NCBI RefSeq assembly: GCF_900452395.1
Contig: NZ_UGNV01000001.1
Location: 2,257,501-2,321,500 of the forward strand
Origin: Legionella beliardensis
GTDB taxonomy: Bacteria; Pseudomonadota; Gammaproteobacteria; Legionellales; Legionellaceae
Direction of reading: 5' to 3'
Length of the DNA: 64,000 bases
This document shows positions 28,309-33,202 of the stretch, in pieces. Under the pieces are notes generated by a model. That model did no database searches. It saw nothing but the letters and a program-made list of their open reading frames with translations, and was not told the DNA's origin. The stretch's first letter is position 1; each line of letters opens with the position of its first letter. Both the position numbers and the translations under genes were made by a program.

Positions 28309-29022
28309 CTATATTGATAAACGGGCGCGAATTCTCAACATAGCTTGAGTATGAATTTGACACACTCTTGACTCACTTACCTCGAGCACTTCACCAATTT
28401 CTTTTAAATTTAAATCTTGCTCATAATAAAGTGATAATACTAAGCGCTCTTTTTCAGGTAAGCCTCTAATAATTTCTGCTAAATGATGCTTGAAATCAGC
28501 CTGCATCACATTGGCATGTGGCTCAGATAAGCTATTGCTATCACTTTTAAGCATGTCATCTGTTACACCTAGATCCTCAAAACCGTATAATTGGCTTCCG
28601 GCTGCATCTTTTAGCATGTCATAGTAATCATCTAAACTGACATTTAATTCAGCAGCTACTTCATTATCCTTTGCCTCACGTCCTAAACGATTTTCTACCG
28701 TTTTGACTGCCAGTGCAATCATTCTCGCGTTACGATATACGGAACGAGGAACCCAATCATTACGTCGTACTTCATCTAACATATGCCCTCTAATACGGAT
28801 ACCGGCATAGGTTTCAAAGGACGCCCCTTTAGAGATATCATAGTGCCTGGCGGCCTCTAACAATCCCATCATGCCTGCCTGAATTAAGTCATCTAATTGA
28901 ATAGAATGTGGTAATTTTGCCTGAAGATGATAAGCAATACGTTTGACTAATAACGCATAAGCTTTAACAAACGTTTCTTGATTTAGTTGAGTAGCTTTGC
29001 CGTATGCTGCTAACGCATCCAC
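28309..29022 (-). CDS. fliA: RNA polymerase sigma factor FliA (sigma-28)
   Basis: A 237-residue sigma-28 factor with regions 2 (LDDLIQAGMMGLLEAARHYD, FETYAGIRIRGHMLDEVR), 3 (about 90-145) and 4 (LPEKERLVLSLYYEQDLNLKEIGEVLEVSESRVCQ). The start is GTG at 29022, with AAGGAG six bases upstream. It lies 75 bases behind flhG. In Legionella FliA drives flagellin and some virulence traits. Here no flagellin, rod, hook, export or motor genes are in the neighbourhood. It may serve a non-motility regulon. No flgM gene is visible. Confidence 0.94.
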   Translation of the reverse strand: MDALAAYGKATQLNQETFVKAYALLVKRIAYHLQAKLPHSIQLDDLIQAGMMGLLEAARHYDISKGASFETYAGIRIRGHMLDEVRRNDWVPRSVYRNARMIALAVKTVENRLGREAKDNEVAAELNVSLDDYYDMLKDAAGSQLYGFEDLGVTDDMLKSDSNSLSEPHANVMQADFKHHLAEIIRGLPEKERLVLSLYYEQDLNLKEIGEVLEVSESRVCQIHTQAMLRIRARLSI

Positions 29023-29096
29023 GACTGTCTCCTTATTAGTATTTTTCGTTTTTATTAACTCAAAACCTGCCTCAGAATAAAGCTACAAATAATCTT

Positions 29097-29957
29097 TTAA
29101 TGTTCTCTAGTTACTAAACGCTCCAAGAAAAAGCTTGTATTACCTAATGAATGCTTAAATGGCCAACTTTCAATACTCACTGCCATTTGATAAAAAGCTT
29201 TAGAAGCATTGCAATCAGGATAAGCAATTAAAACGGCTTGCTGCTTTTTAACTGCATCGTGAATTCGTTCGTCAAATGGTATAGCACCTAAATAATCAAG
29301 CCTTACATCTAAAAATTGCTCAGCGACTTGATAAAGCCGATTAAACAGTTCTCGGCCTTCACGCAAATGATGTACCATATTAGACAATATGCGAAAATGG
29401 CTCCATTCAAAGCGTTTATTCATGACTTTAATCAGGGCATAAGCATCTGTTAAAGCAGTTGGCTCATCACAAACAATCACAATGATTTCTTGTGATGAAC
29501 GAGCAAAGCTTAAAACGGTATCCGAAATACCAGCAGCAGTATCGATGATCATGTAATCAAAATCATCCGTTAATTCATTAAATGAATCAATAATACCTGC
29601 ATGCTGAACAGCCGTAAGTTGAGTCATATATTCTGTACCGGACGCCGCAGGAATGACTGAAATTCCTGCAGGTCCTTCTAAAATAATGTCGGTTAAACGA
29701 CAAGCACCTTGTATAACATGGGATAAATTATACTTTGCTGATAGGCCTAACATAATATCAATGTTAGCTAAGCTTAAATCCGCATCAAACAATAGTACTT
29801 TTTTCTTTTTCTGCGCTAGTGCTATTGCTAAATTGACGGAAACACTACTTTTCCCAACACCACCCTTACCAGCAGACACAGCGATAACTTTTACCGGTTT
29901 AAAATTAGACATATGATGAAAGCCTGCTTTACTTCTAACTTCTTGCTTTCTTTCCAT
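29097..29957 (-). CDS. flhG: FlhG/FleN MinD-like ATPase
   Basis: A 286-residue MinD/ParA-family ATPase. The deviant Walker A KGGVGKSSVSVNLA is at about 30-43, the switch I region in FDADLSLANIDIMLGL, and Walker B in YMIIDTAAG. FlhG/FleN controls flagellum number with FlhF and the master regulator, and binds the EIDALL-type N-terminus of FliM/FliY. No flhF is adjacent, whereas in flagellated Legionella it lies just upstream. The N-terminal DQAxxLR motif, which stimulates FlhF, is not seen. The ATG at 29957 has GGGAG five bases upstream. A FliM-like gene with EIDALL lies just upstream. Confidence 0.9.
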   Translation of the reverse strand: MERKQEVRSKAGFHHMSNFKPVKVIAVSAGKGGVGKSSVSVNLAIALAQKKKKVLLFDADLSLANIDIMLGLSAKYNLSHVIQGACRLTDIILEGPAGISVIPAASGTEYMTQLTAVQHAGIIDSFNELTDDFDYMIIDTAAGISDTVLSFARSSQEIIVIVCDEPTALTDAYALIKVMNKRFEWSHFRILSNMVHHLREGRELFNRLYQVAEQFLDVRLDYLGAIPFDERIHDAVKKQQAVLIAYPDCNASKAFYQMAVSIESWPFKHSLGNTSFFLERLVTREH

Positions 29958-30077
29958 ATTATCTCCCTTTAACCCCCTGCATTCTTTAACGATTACATCA
30001 TTGCAAACTTGTTAAATAAAATGATGCACTATTCATGCCAATAAGTCCTATCTGTCTAGTACTCTACACTTAATAAA

Positions 30078-30374
30078 TCAATTATTTAAACAGCTAAGGC
30101 GTTTAGCTTTACTGTGAACAGTCGTAATTCGAATACCTAAGCCTTCTTTACGGTGTTCTAATTCGCCCTTGGCAACCACTTTACCATTAACACATATCTC
30201 TAAGGGTTCATCAAAATACTGGTCTAACTCTAACATATCACCGGATTTGAGATTTATTAAATCAAAAAGATTAATTTTAGCACTTCCATAAACTATGTTT
30301 ACCGTAATAGGCAAATGTGCCATGTGAGTCAGTTCATCTTCACTACAGTTCTTCTTTTTTTTTCTTTTGTGCAT
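30078..30374 (-). CDS. fliN: FliN-like SPOA-domain protein
   Basis: An SPOA domain protein of 98 residues from the ATG at 30374. The core is LPITVNIVYGSAKINLFDLI, then LKSGDMLELDQ and EICVNGKVVAKGELEHRK, ending IRITTV, as in FliN. It overlaps the 3' end of the EIDALL-SPOA gene in the +1 frame. No Shine-Dalgarno is seen before the ATG at 30374, the TTG at 30389, or the internal ATG at 30323 (MAHLPI). It may therefore be made by re-initiation, or as a fusion to the upstream frame by slippage on A9 (30354-30362, minus strand). Standard FliN is about 100-140 residues. Confidence 0.65.
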   Translation of the reverse strand: MHKRKKKKNCSEDELTHMAHLPITVNIVYGSAKINLFDLINLKSGDMLELDQYFDEPLEICVNGKVVAKGELEHRKEGLGIRITTVHSKAKRLSCLNN

Positions 30375-30711
30375 AATCAATTTTATCAATTAGTTTTAAA
30401 GCTCGTTTATCAACATGTCTGTCTATGGTCGCTGTGAAAATAGGTGTTTTAGCGAGGTCAACCGTTACTGTAGACACAGATAACGGCAAAAAATGACCGA
30501 CTTGCCAATTGAGAAATTCTTCTAAGGTTGTTATTTTTGTAGCTAAAAGGGAACGAATCATGAGCGTAGTAATCGCTAGATGCTCACGAGAAATATTAGA
30601 TTTCTCAGTTATTACTGGTGCCTTATTTTCTAAGCTAGCGAAATTATCAATCGTTGAAATGCGAAGTAGTGCATCAATTTCTTCTTGAGTTAAGATTCCT
30701 TTCCTAGGCAT
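30343..30711 (-). CDS. fliM: Mini-FliM: EIDALL motif plus one SPOA domain (central CheC-like domain missing)
   Basis: A 122-residue protein. It begins with the FliM/FliY signature ILTQEEIDALL (6-16), which in FliM binds CheY and, in some species, FlhG. A spacer of about 35 residues follows, then an SPOA-like domain (about 57-112: LATKITTLEEFLNWQVGHFLPL, DLAKTPIFTATIDRH). Normal FliM is about 330 residues with a CheC-like middle domain, which is absent here. The frame ends in KKKKEEL encoded over an A9 run. Deleting one A would join it to the following FliN-like frame and give about 208 residues with two SPOA domains. GGGAA precedes the ATG at 30711. Confidence 0.65.
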   Translation of the reverse strand: MPRKGILTQEEIDALLRISTIDNFASLENKAPVITEKSNISREHLAITTLMIRSLLATKITTLEEFLNWQVGHFLPLSVSTVTVDLAKTPIFTATIDRHVDKRALKLIDKIDYAQKKKKEEL

Positions 30712-30780: not shown

Positions 30781-31020
30781 CTATTGTTCTAACGCCTTTT
30801 CCTTACATTTATCTTCTGCTGCATCCTCACAATTAGGAATACATTCTGTATCTGTTGAAGTTAGGCAATGAGAATTAACACATTCATTTTTATTGTTTTG
30901 TACACACATTTGCATATTAAATTCCTCAGTCCCTTCTACAATATCGGGCTCATCTGCAGCATAAGCAACTAGTGGAAACCAAACAGTCACAACTAAACTT
31001 AATTGCCGTAAATGATTCAT
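30781..31020 (-). CDS. Small secreted Cys-containing protein
   Basis: A 79-residue protein with a signal peptide (residues 1-21, ending VAYA). The mature part is acidic with six Cys (MCVQNN, ECVNSHCL, ECIPNCED, KCKE). AAGGAT precedes its ATG by about 5 bases. I recognise no family. Two or three disulfides in the periplasm or outside are likely. It stands alone upstream of the fliM-like gene with a 70-base gap. Confidence 0.6.
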   Translation of the reverse strand: MNHLRQLSLVVTVWFPLVAYAADEPDIVEGTEEFNMQMCVQNNKNECVNSHCLTSTDTECIPNCEDAAEDKCKEKALEQ

Positions 31021-31190: not shown

Positions 31191-32486
31191 ATGCGCAGTA
31201 AAAAAATGCGTTTTTCAAATTTTAGCCAAGCAATTACCTCAAGCTCAACGTGTTATCGCCCCGAACAGGAAAAGCAATTAGCGATGCTTTTCGAATACAG
31301 TCAGCAAACGCATCAAACCTTGCTCGCTAGAGGAAAAGGCTTAAGTTACAGCGATTGTTGTATTAATCATGGTGGTATCATTGTCGATACCTCCCGCTTC
31401 AATCATTTTTTAGCGTTTGATGAACAGGAAGAAACCGTCATTTGTCAGCCAGCTGTTACCTTTGCGGAATTACTTTCTCTTCACCCTCATTATATACCCC
31501 CTGTTATTCCTGGTACGCTCCATGCAACAATCGGTGGCGGGGTTGCTAACGATGTTCATGGTAAGAATAATAGTCATTTAGGTACGTTAGGACATCATAT
31601 TCAATGGCTTGAGGTGCAAATAGGCGAGCAAACGTTTTATTGCGGCTCACAAGAAAATCAGCAACTCTTACAAGCAACGATTGGCGGCTTAGGGTTAACA
31701 GGTATTATTAAACGTGTCGCTATTAAAATGCGCAAAGCAAGTCGCACCATTCAAACGCAAGCTGAAAAACACCACCAATGGGCAAGCTTGCTAGAACGCA
31801 TGCAGCAAGAAGCAGAAAAACAAGAGTATATGGTTGCCTGGCTTGATTTGTTAAACACCAATCAAGCGCTCCTTACGTTTGGCAATCATTTCTCTGAAGA
31901 AATTACGCCTAAAAAAACAATGACTTTAACTATCCCGTCATTACCTATGCGCTTAATTACTCGCCAAACCATGAAACTCTACAATCACTATTATTTTCAT
32001 AAAGCCAAGGAGTCGCTTTACCTGCAACCACTTGCACAATTTAATAATCCATTAGATTCTCTAAAGCATTGGAATCGTTTATATGGCAAAAATGGGCTTT
32101 TACAATTTCAAGGTGTTTTTAGCAAAGATATTGCCTTAGAATTATTAACAGAATTACAAAAAATCATTAGCCACTATGGCGCTGTGCCCACATTAGCCGT
32201 ATTAAAATATTTTACTAACTCTGGCCCTGGCTTATTATCGTTTGCTAAGCCCGGTTTTACTGTAGCTATTGACTTTATTAACACTGTAAAAGCGAGAGAT
32301 GCCATTAAACAAATGAATGAATTAGTAACGGAAAGTAAAGGAAAAGTTTATCTAGCCAAAGATTTGTTTCTTACCGCTGAGCAATTTAAATTGCAGTACC
32401 CCAACCATCAGCAATTTCATCGTATTTTAACCGAATTTTCACCACCGATAAGTTCTAATTTATCTCATAGATTGGGGTTAACATGA
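31191..32486 (+). CDS. FAD-binding oxidoreductase, DprE1-like
   Basis: A 431-residue protein of the VAO/PCMH flavoprotein fold. Segments match mycobacterial DprE1, which oxidises C2 of decaprenyl-phospho-ribose: RGKGLSYSD, IPGTLHATIGGGVANDVHGKN (FAD site, about 105-125), IGGLGLTGII, LAQFNNPLDSLKHWN and KVYLAKDLFLT. The next gene, which it overlaps by 4 bases (ATGA), is an SDR like DprE2. In actinobacteria the pair makes decaprenyl-phospho-arabinose. In this Gram-negative it may epimerise another polyprenyl-linked sugar. No prenyltransferase or arabinosyltransferase gene is adjacent. AGGA lies about 9 bases before the ATG. Confidence 0.85.
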   Translation: MRSKKMRFSNFSQAITSSSTCYRPEQEKQLAMLFEYSQQTHQTLLARGKGLSYSDCCINHGGIIVDTSRFNHFLAFDEQEETVICQPAVTFAELLSLHPHYIPPVIPGTLHATIGGGVANDVHGKNNSHLGTLGHHIQWLEVQIGEQTFYCGSQENQQLLQATIGGLGLTGIIKRVAIKMRKASRTIQTQAEKHHQWASLLERMQQEAEKQEYMVAWLDLLNTNQALLTFGNHFSEEITPKKTMTLTIPSLPMRLITRQTMKLYNHYYFHKAKESLYLQPLAQFNNPLDSLKHWNRLYGKNGLLQFQGVFSKDIALELLTELQKIISHYGAVPTLAVLKYFTNSGPGLLSFAKPGFTVAIDFINTVKARDAIKQMNELVTESKGKVYLAKDLFLTAEQFKLQYPNHQQFHRILTEFSPPISSNLSHRLGLT

Positions 32487-33202
32487 AACCAACGACTTGG
32501 GTTATTTTAGGTGCAACCTCAATCATTGCTGAAGAGTTTGCCCATCTTGCGGGTCAACACGGCCACCCTTTATTATTAATAGGCCGAGATAAAGCTGAAC
32601 TTGAAATTATCGCTGCTGATTTACAATTACGGCATCAAGTTGATTGCGAGATTATTATTTTTGACTTTACCAACGATATGAATAGCCTTATTAAATGTTT
32701 ACAAGAAAAAGAAGAGGAACTGGCTCTTTTTATTGCGTATAGTGACTTTACCGATAATCAAGCACTTACTTTTGCATCCATTAAAACACTGATCACAATT
32801 AATATCAGCAGTATTGTCCAGTTAGTGCATGGTTATTTACAAAAATTTCAATCACAGCATCGTTTGATTTTCTTAAGTTCAGTTGCCGCTTGTCGCGGCA
32901 GATCTAAAAACAGTCTTTATGGTGCAAGTAAAGCAGCAGTTGAAGTCTATTTACAAGGTTTGCAGCAAACACCTGAAAAGAACCGGCAAATTACTATAGC
33001 TAGATTAGGCTTTATTGATACAGCTCAAACCTTTGGCCTGCCTGGTATTTTTTATGCCTCTCCTCCTAAAAAATGTGCCGAAGCGTGTTGGAAAGCAACT
33101 TATGCAGGTAAGCCTCTTATTTATCATCCGCATTTTTGGCGCGCGATTATGGCTATCATTACCCGCTTACCTTTTTTCATTTACCGAAAATTGAAATTCT
33201 AA
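32483..33202 (+). CDS. Short-chain dehydrogenase, DprE2-like
   Basis: A 239-residue SDR with the nucleotide-binding Gly region modified to ILGATSIIAEEFAHLA (5-20) and the catalytic Ser-Tyr-Lys set in LSSVAACRGRSKNSLYGASKAAVE (about 133-156). The C-terminus has a hydrophobic stretch that could touch the membrane. DprE2 reduces the 2-keto intermediate made by DprE1. The 4-base start/stop overlap shows coupled translation with the DprE1-like gene. A strong hairpin (33208-33235) follows the stop. Confidence 0.83.
   Translation: MKPTTWVILGATSIIAEEFAHLAGQHGHPLLLIGRDKAELEIIAADLQLRHQVDCEIIIFDFTNDMNSLIKCLQEKEEELALFIAYSDFTDNQALTFASIKTLITINISSIVQLVHGYLQKFQSQHRLIFLSSVAACRGRSKNSLYGASKAAVEVYLQGLQQTPEKNRQITIARLGFIDTAQTFGLPGIFYASPPKKCAEACWKATYAGKPLIYHPHFWRAIMAIITRLPFFIYRKLKF

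Follow-up and report, generated by a model that had tools for sequence, protein, structure and literature searches.

A reduced flagellar locus of Legionella beliardensis that may persist as a regulator

A 64,000-nucleotide stretch of the Legionella beliardensis genome (contig NZ_UGNV01000001.1, positions 2,257,501 to 2,321,500; here called the window) carries four flagellar genes in a row, fliM', fliN', flhG and fliA, of which the first two encode remnants of rotor proteins. The main flagellar genes that were searched for are gone from this genome, and a sigma-28/anti-sigma-28 pair and a FleQ-FlhG pair are kept. On balance, we favour the reading that the locus is what remains of the flagellar C-ring checkpoint after heavy reduction and may still serve as a regulator, with FliM'-FliN' tuning FlhG-FleQ. 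The genome retains the presumed ligand, the ATPase, the activator and the FliA/FlgM output, and has lost the parts needed for assembly (FliG, FlhF, the DQAxxLR helix of FlhG and the middle of FliM). Features of the locus, numbered from the first letter of the window, are as follows.

30343..30711, minus strand: fliM', 122 amino acids, with an EIDALL head, a variable linker and an SPOA domain; the CheC-like middle is absent
30664..30711, minus strand: N-terminal head of FliM', MPRKGILTQEEIDALL, a predicted FlhG-docking peptide
30379..30567, minus strand: SPOA (FliMN_C) domain of fliM', Pfam PF01052
30078..30374, minus strand: fliN', 98 amino acids from the ATG, with an SPOA domain
30025..30041, minus strand: sigma-54-like -24/-12 site TTGGCATGAATAGTGCA upstream of flhG, spotted by eye
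29097..29957, minus strand: flhG (fleN), a MinD-type ATPase of 286 amino acids with a Walker A motif
29904..29957, minus strand: N-terminus of FlhG; the DQAxxLR motif, activator of FlhF, has been lost here
28309..29022, minus strand: fliA, a sigma-28 factor of 237 amino acids

All four frames are open, as a preliminary description of the locus had stated. Counted from its ATG, fliN' shares 32 nucleotides with the 3' end of fliM'; its mechanical start is a TTG at 30389. FliM' consists of the head MPRKGILTQEEIDALL, which includes QEEIDALL at residues 9-16, a linker of about 45 residues and the SPOA domain. Both FliM' (30.6 bits) and FliN' (64.0 bits) exceed the cut-off of 23.8 for Pfam FliMN_C (SPOA). 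Neither reaches its equivalog family: FliM' scores 24.4 bits against the FliM equivalog TIGR01397 (cut-off 219.6), with profile positions 243-319 alone matched, and FliN' scores 66.9 bits against the FliN equivalog TIGR02480 (cut-off 84.05) and 46.9 against NCBIfam SctQ (cut-off 100.8). In an alignment with the full-length FliM of G010, a flagellated relative within the genus, FliM' matches over the head and the SPOA domain and lacks about 240 residues between the two; the CheC-like middle, which is the FliG-binding domain, is absent, as the preliminary description had said. A profile search with the FliM' alignment against solved structures gave no match at E 0.1, and neither FliM' nor FliN' matched the PHROGs. 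FliA exceeds its cut-off (NCBIfam NF005413, 318.7 against 201). The closest solved structures to FlhG are the FleN entries 5j1j (318 bits), 8p53 and 8pb9; the protein keeps the KGGVGK Walker A motif and residues K31, K36, D60 and D139, and its C-terminal end is, by eye, membrane-helix-like.

What else of the flagellum remains? The genome (3.54 Mb in six contigs, estimated 100% complete) has no FlhA, no FliG and no FlhF over cut-off; FliC, FliF, the hook genes and MotAB were not searched for genome-wide. A complete flagellar set elsewhere, which would speak against the preliminary description, was not found: the genome lacks FlhA, FliG and any FlhF over cut-off. Nor is there any sign of a second flagellar system (no FHIPEP match, no FliG, no FlhF over cut-off), and SPOA sequences occur at two places, fliM' and fliN'. 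FlhA, FliG and FlhF (over cut-off) are each found in eight of 11 genomes of the genus, the same three genomes lacking them in every case: the window genome and those of two sister species (G002 and G004). FlgM and FleQ are present in all 11. The preliminary description erred, however, in holding that only four genes were kept, as the genome also retains flgM and an intact fleQ of 469 amino acids (L124:3643-5052) with FleQ, sigma-54 activation and Fis-type helix-turn-helix domains. Its statement that the genes between fliN and flhG are gone agrees with the arrangement in G010, where fliM and fliN are followed by flhA, flhF and other open reading frames, then flhG and fliA (flhA and flhF were placed by profile search, and the other gene names were given by eye). 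Retention of fliA, fleN and flgM in non-flagellated Legionella has already been published (PMC5655016, PMC2824747), and the set kept here matches that pattern. The published retention accounts, as far as the text available goes, name no FliM or FliN remnant, and 'FliM' has no occurrence in that of PMC5655016. In a comparison of five of the 11 FlgM rows, the FlgM of the window genome and of G002 (L023, L024) looks shorter than in the flagellated G001, G006 and G009, as might be expected after export has been lost.

Are fliM' and fliN' simply debris? The locus does not look like it. In the two sister species, all four genes are present, arranged as in the window and flanked by the same near neighbours (fliM' orthologues at L025:9004-9366, minus strand, and L026:7277-7633, plus strand). 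Between the sisters, the ratio of nonsynonymous to synonymous substitution rates (dN/dS) is 0.225 for fliM' (at a synonymous divergence, dS, of 0.31) and likewise 0.225 for fliN' (dS 0.40). Overall it ranges over 0.17-0.23 for fliM' and 0.22-0.34 for fliN', comparisons with the window giving 0.17-0.34 at high dS. In a neutral simulation (random mutation at the observed dS between the sisters, with an assumed mutation bias and without insertions or deletions), none of 2,000 runs for either gene reached a dN/dS as low as the value between the sisters, and the frames stayed open in 2.3% (fliM') and 1.6% (fliN') of runs. A dN/dS comparison across non-flagellated Legionella had been suggested as a check; made on the three-species clade, it places all four genes well under 1 and indicates selection rather than neutral decay in the sister species. 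Conservation within FliM' is also uneven. The head has 14 of 16 residues identical to each sister, the linker 12 and 15 of 45, and the SPOA domain 36 and 34 of 52 (Fisher test of head against linker, 5e-5 and 3e-4 for the two sisters). The predicted FlhG-docking head is thus the best-kept stretch of FliM'. That the locus is 'not just debris', as first proposed, is supported by purifying selection, by the same architecture in two sisters and by mini-proteins in three further lineages.

These mini-proteins emerged from a search of 143 genomes of the family with the three-row FliM' alignment. There were matches in 65 genomes: 58 have frames of 331-388 amino acids, contig ends truncate two (G094, G138), and the remaining five are short (the window clade, G128 and G113). 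Among genomes whose main FlhA is absent or unclear, SPOA matches and FlhG loci revealed two more mini-proteins, in G102 and G114. 'Main' and 'second' FlhA were split by score alone, about 868-893 against about 707-770 bits for full-length matches, with G026 (801) and G112 (792) falling between the two ranges. The mini genomes therefore number seven: three in the window clade (G000, which is the window genome, G002 and G004) and four in three further lineages (G128; G113 with G114; G102), where an SPOA mini-protein with an EIDALL or EINALL head is likewise encoded upstream of flhG. At most fliN lies between the mini gene and flhG, plus an flhF-like open reading frame in G128. FleQ is present in all seven.

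The mini-proteins were not all put together in the same way, and the junctions between head and SPOA domain differ among lineages. G128, from another genus, encodes a FliM of 129 amino acids, head and SPOA domain, having lost the middle in frame by comparison with its close flagellated sister G130. Its gene order is fliM, fliN, an flhF-like open reading frame of 153 amino acids, flhG and fliA; the flhF-like frame is truncated, was named by eye and matched no GTPase family. In G113, the head is fused to an SPOA domain of FliN type in a protein of 131 amino acids. In G102 and G114, it is fused to an SPOA domain, over cut-off, whose first half is by eye FliM-like and whose second half is FliN-like. 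Across lineages, LxQxEI(D/N)ALL is the most strongly conserved block. On a tree of FlhG plus FliA from 49 genomes, flagellated genomes sit between the mini genomes, which need four changes, at least three of them forced by well-supported branches, and a single clade of mini genomes is rejected (approximately unbiased test, p=1.5e-60). The tree excludes G112, for which the fetched stretch contained no flhG; G075 and G055, whose status is unclear, are included in it and belong to no group. There were apparently four independent reductions of FliM, or three if the well-supported (starred) branches alone are trusted; they are read as independent reductions because regaining a full FliM is implausible. 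This convergent EIDALL-SPOA remnant appears to be new. EIDAL motifs are known from certain FliN and FliY proteins of bacteria with flagella (PMC6946799), and a search of open-licence papers turned up, in the portions of text available, no description of such a remnant in bacteria without flagella.

FlhG itself offers a hint of which of its roles has been kept. Its N-terminal DQAxxLR has been described as the activator of FlhF (PMC12826062). The motif was compared among 25 flagellated genomes (taken from about 60 in the family with a full or contig-cut FliM), the seven mini genomes and a third group. For the last, 30 genomes were chosen among those whose main FlhA is missing or of unclear status; 18 have FlhG, and 15 of these, leaving out G102 and the unclear G055 and G075, form the group termed bare here. 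DQAxxLR is present in 24 of 25 flagellated genomes, one of seven mini genomes and none of the bare ones. It has been lost in the window genome, G002, G004, G113, G114 and G102; the sole mini genome that has it, G128, still has the truncated flhF-like frame. Flagellated genomes have 154 near-invariant FlhG columns; of these, 112 are conserved throughout the seven mini genomes and 51 throughout the 15 bare genomes. Nine columns are kept by three or fewer mini genomes, and seven of the nine lie at positions 9-18, in the DQAxxLR region. Geobacillus FlhG touches the N-terminus of FliY through K177, R207 and F215 (PMC12327844; the part of the paper available prints 'Arginine 277' twice and R207E once, and residue 207 is taken here). 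Through an alignment with 4rz2, with an eight-residue numbering offset deduced from the letters, these contacts map to K177, R207 and F215 of the window FlhG. Every flagellated genome (25) and every mini genome (seven) has K at 177, K or R at 207 and F at 215; among the bare genomes there is one W at 215. Position 207 is K in all 25 flagellated and all 15 bare genomes and R in four of the seven mini genomes (two lineages); this represents about two events and is given little weight.

The sigma-54-like site TTGGCATGAATAGTGCA has counterparts in an equivalent place upstream of flhG in both sisters, with two mismatches in the window and one each in G002 and G004. Sites were first seen by eye and then scored by mismatches to the consensus; none of 300 letter shuffles of each of the three upstream stretches matched as well. 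In other lineages, such a site stands before the mini gene: it is perfect in G114, has two mismatches in G113 (one of 300 shuffles as good) and three in G102 (six of 300). The best site before fliM in G128 also has three mismatches (nine of 300). A sigma-28 pattern gave no site in the scanned intergenic stretches.

How might such a module work? From gene content, conservation, selection, convergence and the loss of the FlhF arm we infer a scheme in which binding, competition and the direction of control are predictions. FliM', paired with FliN', would be a soluble ligand of FlhG through its EIDALL head. FlhG would restrain the sigma-54 activator FleQ, which in turn may drive the sigma-54-like promoter before flhG-fliA. 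The level or assembly state of FliM'-FliN' could then set the share of FlhG that is free to inhibit FleQ, with an output to flhG-fliA and, possibly, to further FleQ and FliA targets. No C-ring can be built, because FliG and FlhF are gone. Published work provides the precedents: FleN/FlhG inhibits the ATPase of FleQ/FlrA (PMC12826062, PMC10723142), FlrA and FliM share one site on FlhG, and FliM binds FlhG regardless of nucleotide, FlrA binding the ATP dimer only (PMC11236974).

Several observations weigh against this scheme. In 15 of the 18 FlhG-bearing genomes, representing about five lineages, the surroundings of flhG out to 1.5 kb contain no frame of SPOA or EIDALL type, and FleQ is present in 14 of these genomes. 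The mini-protein is thus dispensable. It occurs in four of 16 examined FlhG-bearing genomes without an FHIPEP match (G000, G002, G004, G102), and a loose EIDALL-type pattern run over the 18 flhG loci matched in G102 alone. FlhG columns were considered as a marker of an EIDALL partner and rejected, as genomes lacking the mini-protein retain the docking positions nearly as well as those that have it. FliM' and FliN' are less constrained than most neighbouring genes and than flhG and fliA: dN/dS is 0.02-0.05 for the latter two (0.02-0.04 for fliA) and 0.08-0.27 for six other comparison genes, five of them at about 0.1 and a Cys-rich neighbour at 0.09-0.27. As for the promoter, no sigma-54-like site was found directly before fliM' in the window clade, and a stricter sigma-54 pattern gave none in the scanned intergenic stretches. 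Matches in the 64-kb window are at chance (33 against 35.5 expected), with four sites of two or fewer mismatches, so that position and conservation carry the promoter argument. The reduction in G128 looks recent, at 82-87% DNA identity to the flagellated sister. That genome also has a second flagellum-type cluster, with best matches to FlgI, FlgF, FlhA, FliF, FliI, FlgE and FliP, of which FlhA, FlgE and FlgF are under their equivalog cut-offs. G113 and G114 each possess a further FHIPEP, along with SPOA genes; the FHIPEP of G114, in a genome 80% complete, is partial and of ambiguous type. Given these second systems, G128, G113 and G114 are not strictly flagellum-free. A second FHIPEP is seen in many family members; the compact flagellum-type cluster of G128 is at L122, and the G113 locus is L123.

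Other explanations have to be set beside the regulatory reading. Could fliM' and fliN' be slowly decaying debris after all, surviving by chance between deletions and carried along by flhG and fliA, for whose retention there would be other reasons? They do evolve faster, FliM' and FliN' being 53-55% identical between window and sisters and FlhG and FliA 90-91%; the bare genomes lack both main flagellum and mini-protein, and G128 has its truncated flhF-like frame. However, dN/dS lies far below neutral, at a level that none of the 2,000 simulations per gene attained, the frames are intact in all three species, and joins of head to SPOA domain recur in separate lineages. We consider debris unlikely. 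Control of the cell pole or division site by FlhG with FliM' and FliN', as in Campylobacter jejuni, instead of transcription, also seems to us unlikely, if slightly less so. In C. jejuni, flhG, fliM and fliN mutants form minicells (PMC6946799), and the FlhG Walker A motif and membrane-helix-like C-terminus would fit a similar role here, but the polar-targeting arm (FlhF, DQAxxLR) has been lost and FleQ persists in every mini genome. The preliminary description had left the choice between a 'regulatory or polar-positioning module'. Its regulatory half, FlhG with FleQ, is the likelier, because the polar-targeting GTPase FlhF is gone and DQAxxLR is lost; the polar half is less supported.

The EIDALL head might instead be kept for CheY or another response regulator, FliM' being a sink or adaptor for chemotaxis proteins. 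EIDAL is also the CheY-binding motif of FliM (PMC6946799), and some Legionella carry che genes (PMC5655016). Most Legionella, including the flagellated L. pneumophila, are without them according to the same source, yet all 29 flagellated fliM loci scanned (23 genomes) begin with EIDALL or EINALL; a CheY role is quite unlikely. That FliM' and FliN' belong to another type III or flagellum-like machine is highly improbable. The second cluster of G128 and the additional FHIPEP and SPOA genes of G113 and G114 would speak for it, but there is no FHIPEP match in the window genome, G002, G004 or G102, and among the fetched SPOA loci EIDALL-type heads are confined to the full FliM of G098 and the mini-protein of G114. 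For the window clade it is refuted, unless an unrecognised export gate exists.

Directly upstream of fliM' is a gene for a Cys-rich, secreted-type protein of 79 amino acids.

30781..31020, minus strand: Cys-rich secreted-type protein; similar proteins at L064 9089-9358, L121 6829-7056, L027 8030-8275 and L146

The protein has no family over cut-off in family searches that included the PHROGs. In G010, the window clade, G113, G114 and G102, the gene immediately preceding fliM or the mini gene encodes a protein of this kind, of about 75-89 amino acids. It was set aside as a partner in the module, as it is an old neighbour that also precedes the full-length fliM of the flagellated G010; it probably lies outside the module. 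The locus is further flanked by a pair of DprE1-like (242 bits, cut-off 500) and DprE2/SDR oxidoreductase-like genes (window 31191-33202), and open reading frames similar to this pair, by eye, also flank the locus in L025, L026, L027, L063, L064 and L121.

Is the window locus then one instance of something more general? The chances seem to us even that a flagellum-independent module exists in which EIDALL-SPOA ligands, some with chimeric SPOA domains, have repeatedly been cut from FliM and FliN and control the FlhG-FleQ switch. If so, repeated EIDALL-SPOA reduction would account for a part, at least, of the rotor-only genomes noted in non-motile bacteria; a 2025 survey asks about rotor proteins without a filament (PMC12199754). 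Natural deletions in four lineages kept the FlhG-docking head and the SPOA domain and dropped the middle of FliM, which makes it testable that rotor remnants act as ligands of the FlhG-FleQ switch. The loss of DQAxxLR in most of these FlhG proteins separates, by evolution, two jobs of FlhG.

The closest known system is the FlhG-FliM-FlrA (FleN-FliM-FleQ) switch of monotrichous bacteria such as Shewanella putrefaciens, with which the window locus has in common the EIDALL head, the FlhG ATPase motifs and docking positions, and FleQ. The window differs in having no FliG or FlhF, hence no C-ring, an FlhG without DQAxxLR and a FliM of head and SPOA domain. FliY of Bacillus and Geobacillus (EIDAL, CheC-like and SPOA), also an FlhG ligand, shares the docking head on an SPOA protein; the fusions of G113, G114 and G102 resemble a FliY minus its middle. 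Unlike FliY, the mini-proteins have no CheC-like domain, and a main-type flagellum to assemble was not found in their genomes (the G114 type being ambiguous). Injectisome proteins of SctQ/SpaO type likewise come as SPOA pairs, but the window genome has no export gate and FliN' is under the SctQ cut-off. Other non-flagellated Legionella (oakridgensis, longbeachae, israelensis, londiniensis) have also kept various sets of fliA, flhG/fleN, flgM and fleQ; to judge from the available portions of their published gene lists, these show no FliM or FliN remnant, whereas the window clade has kept both beside flhG.

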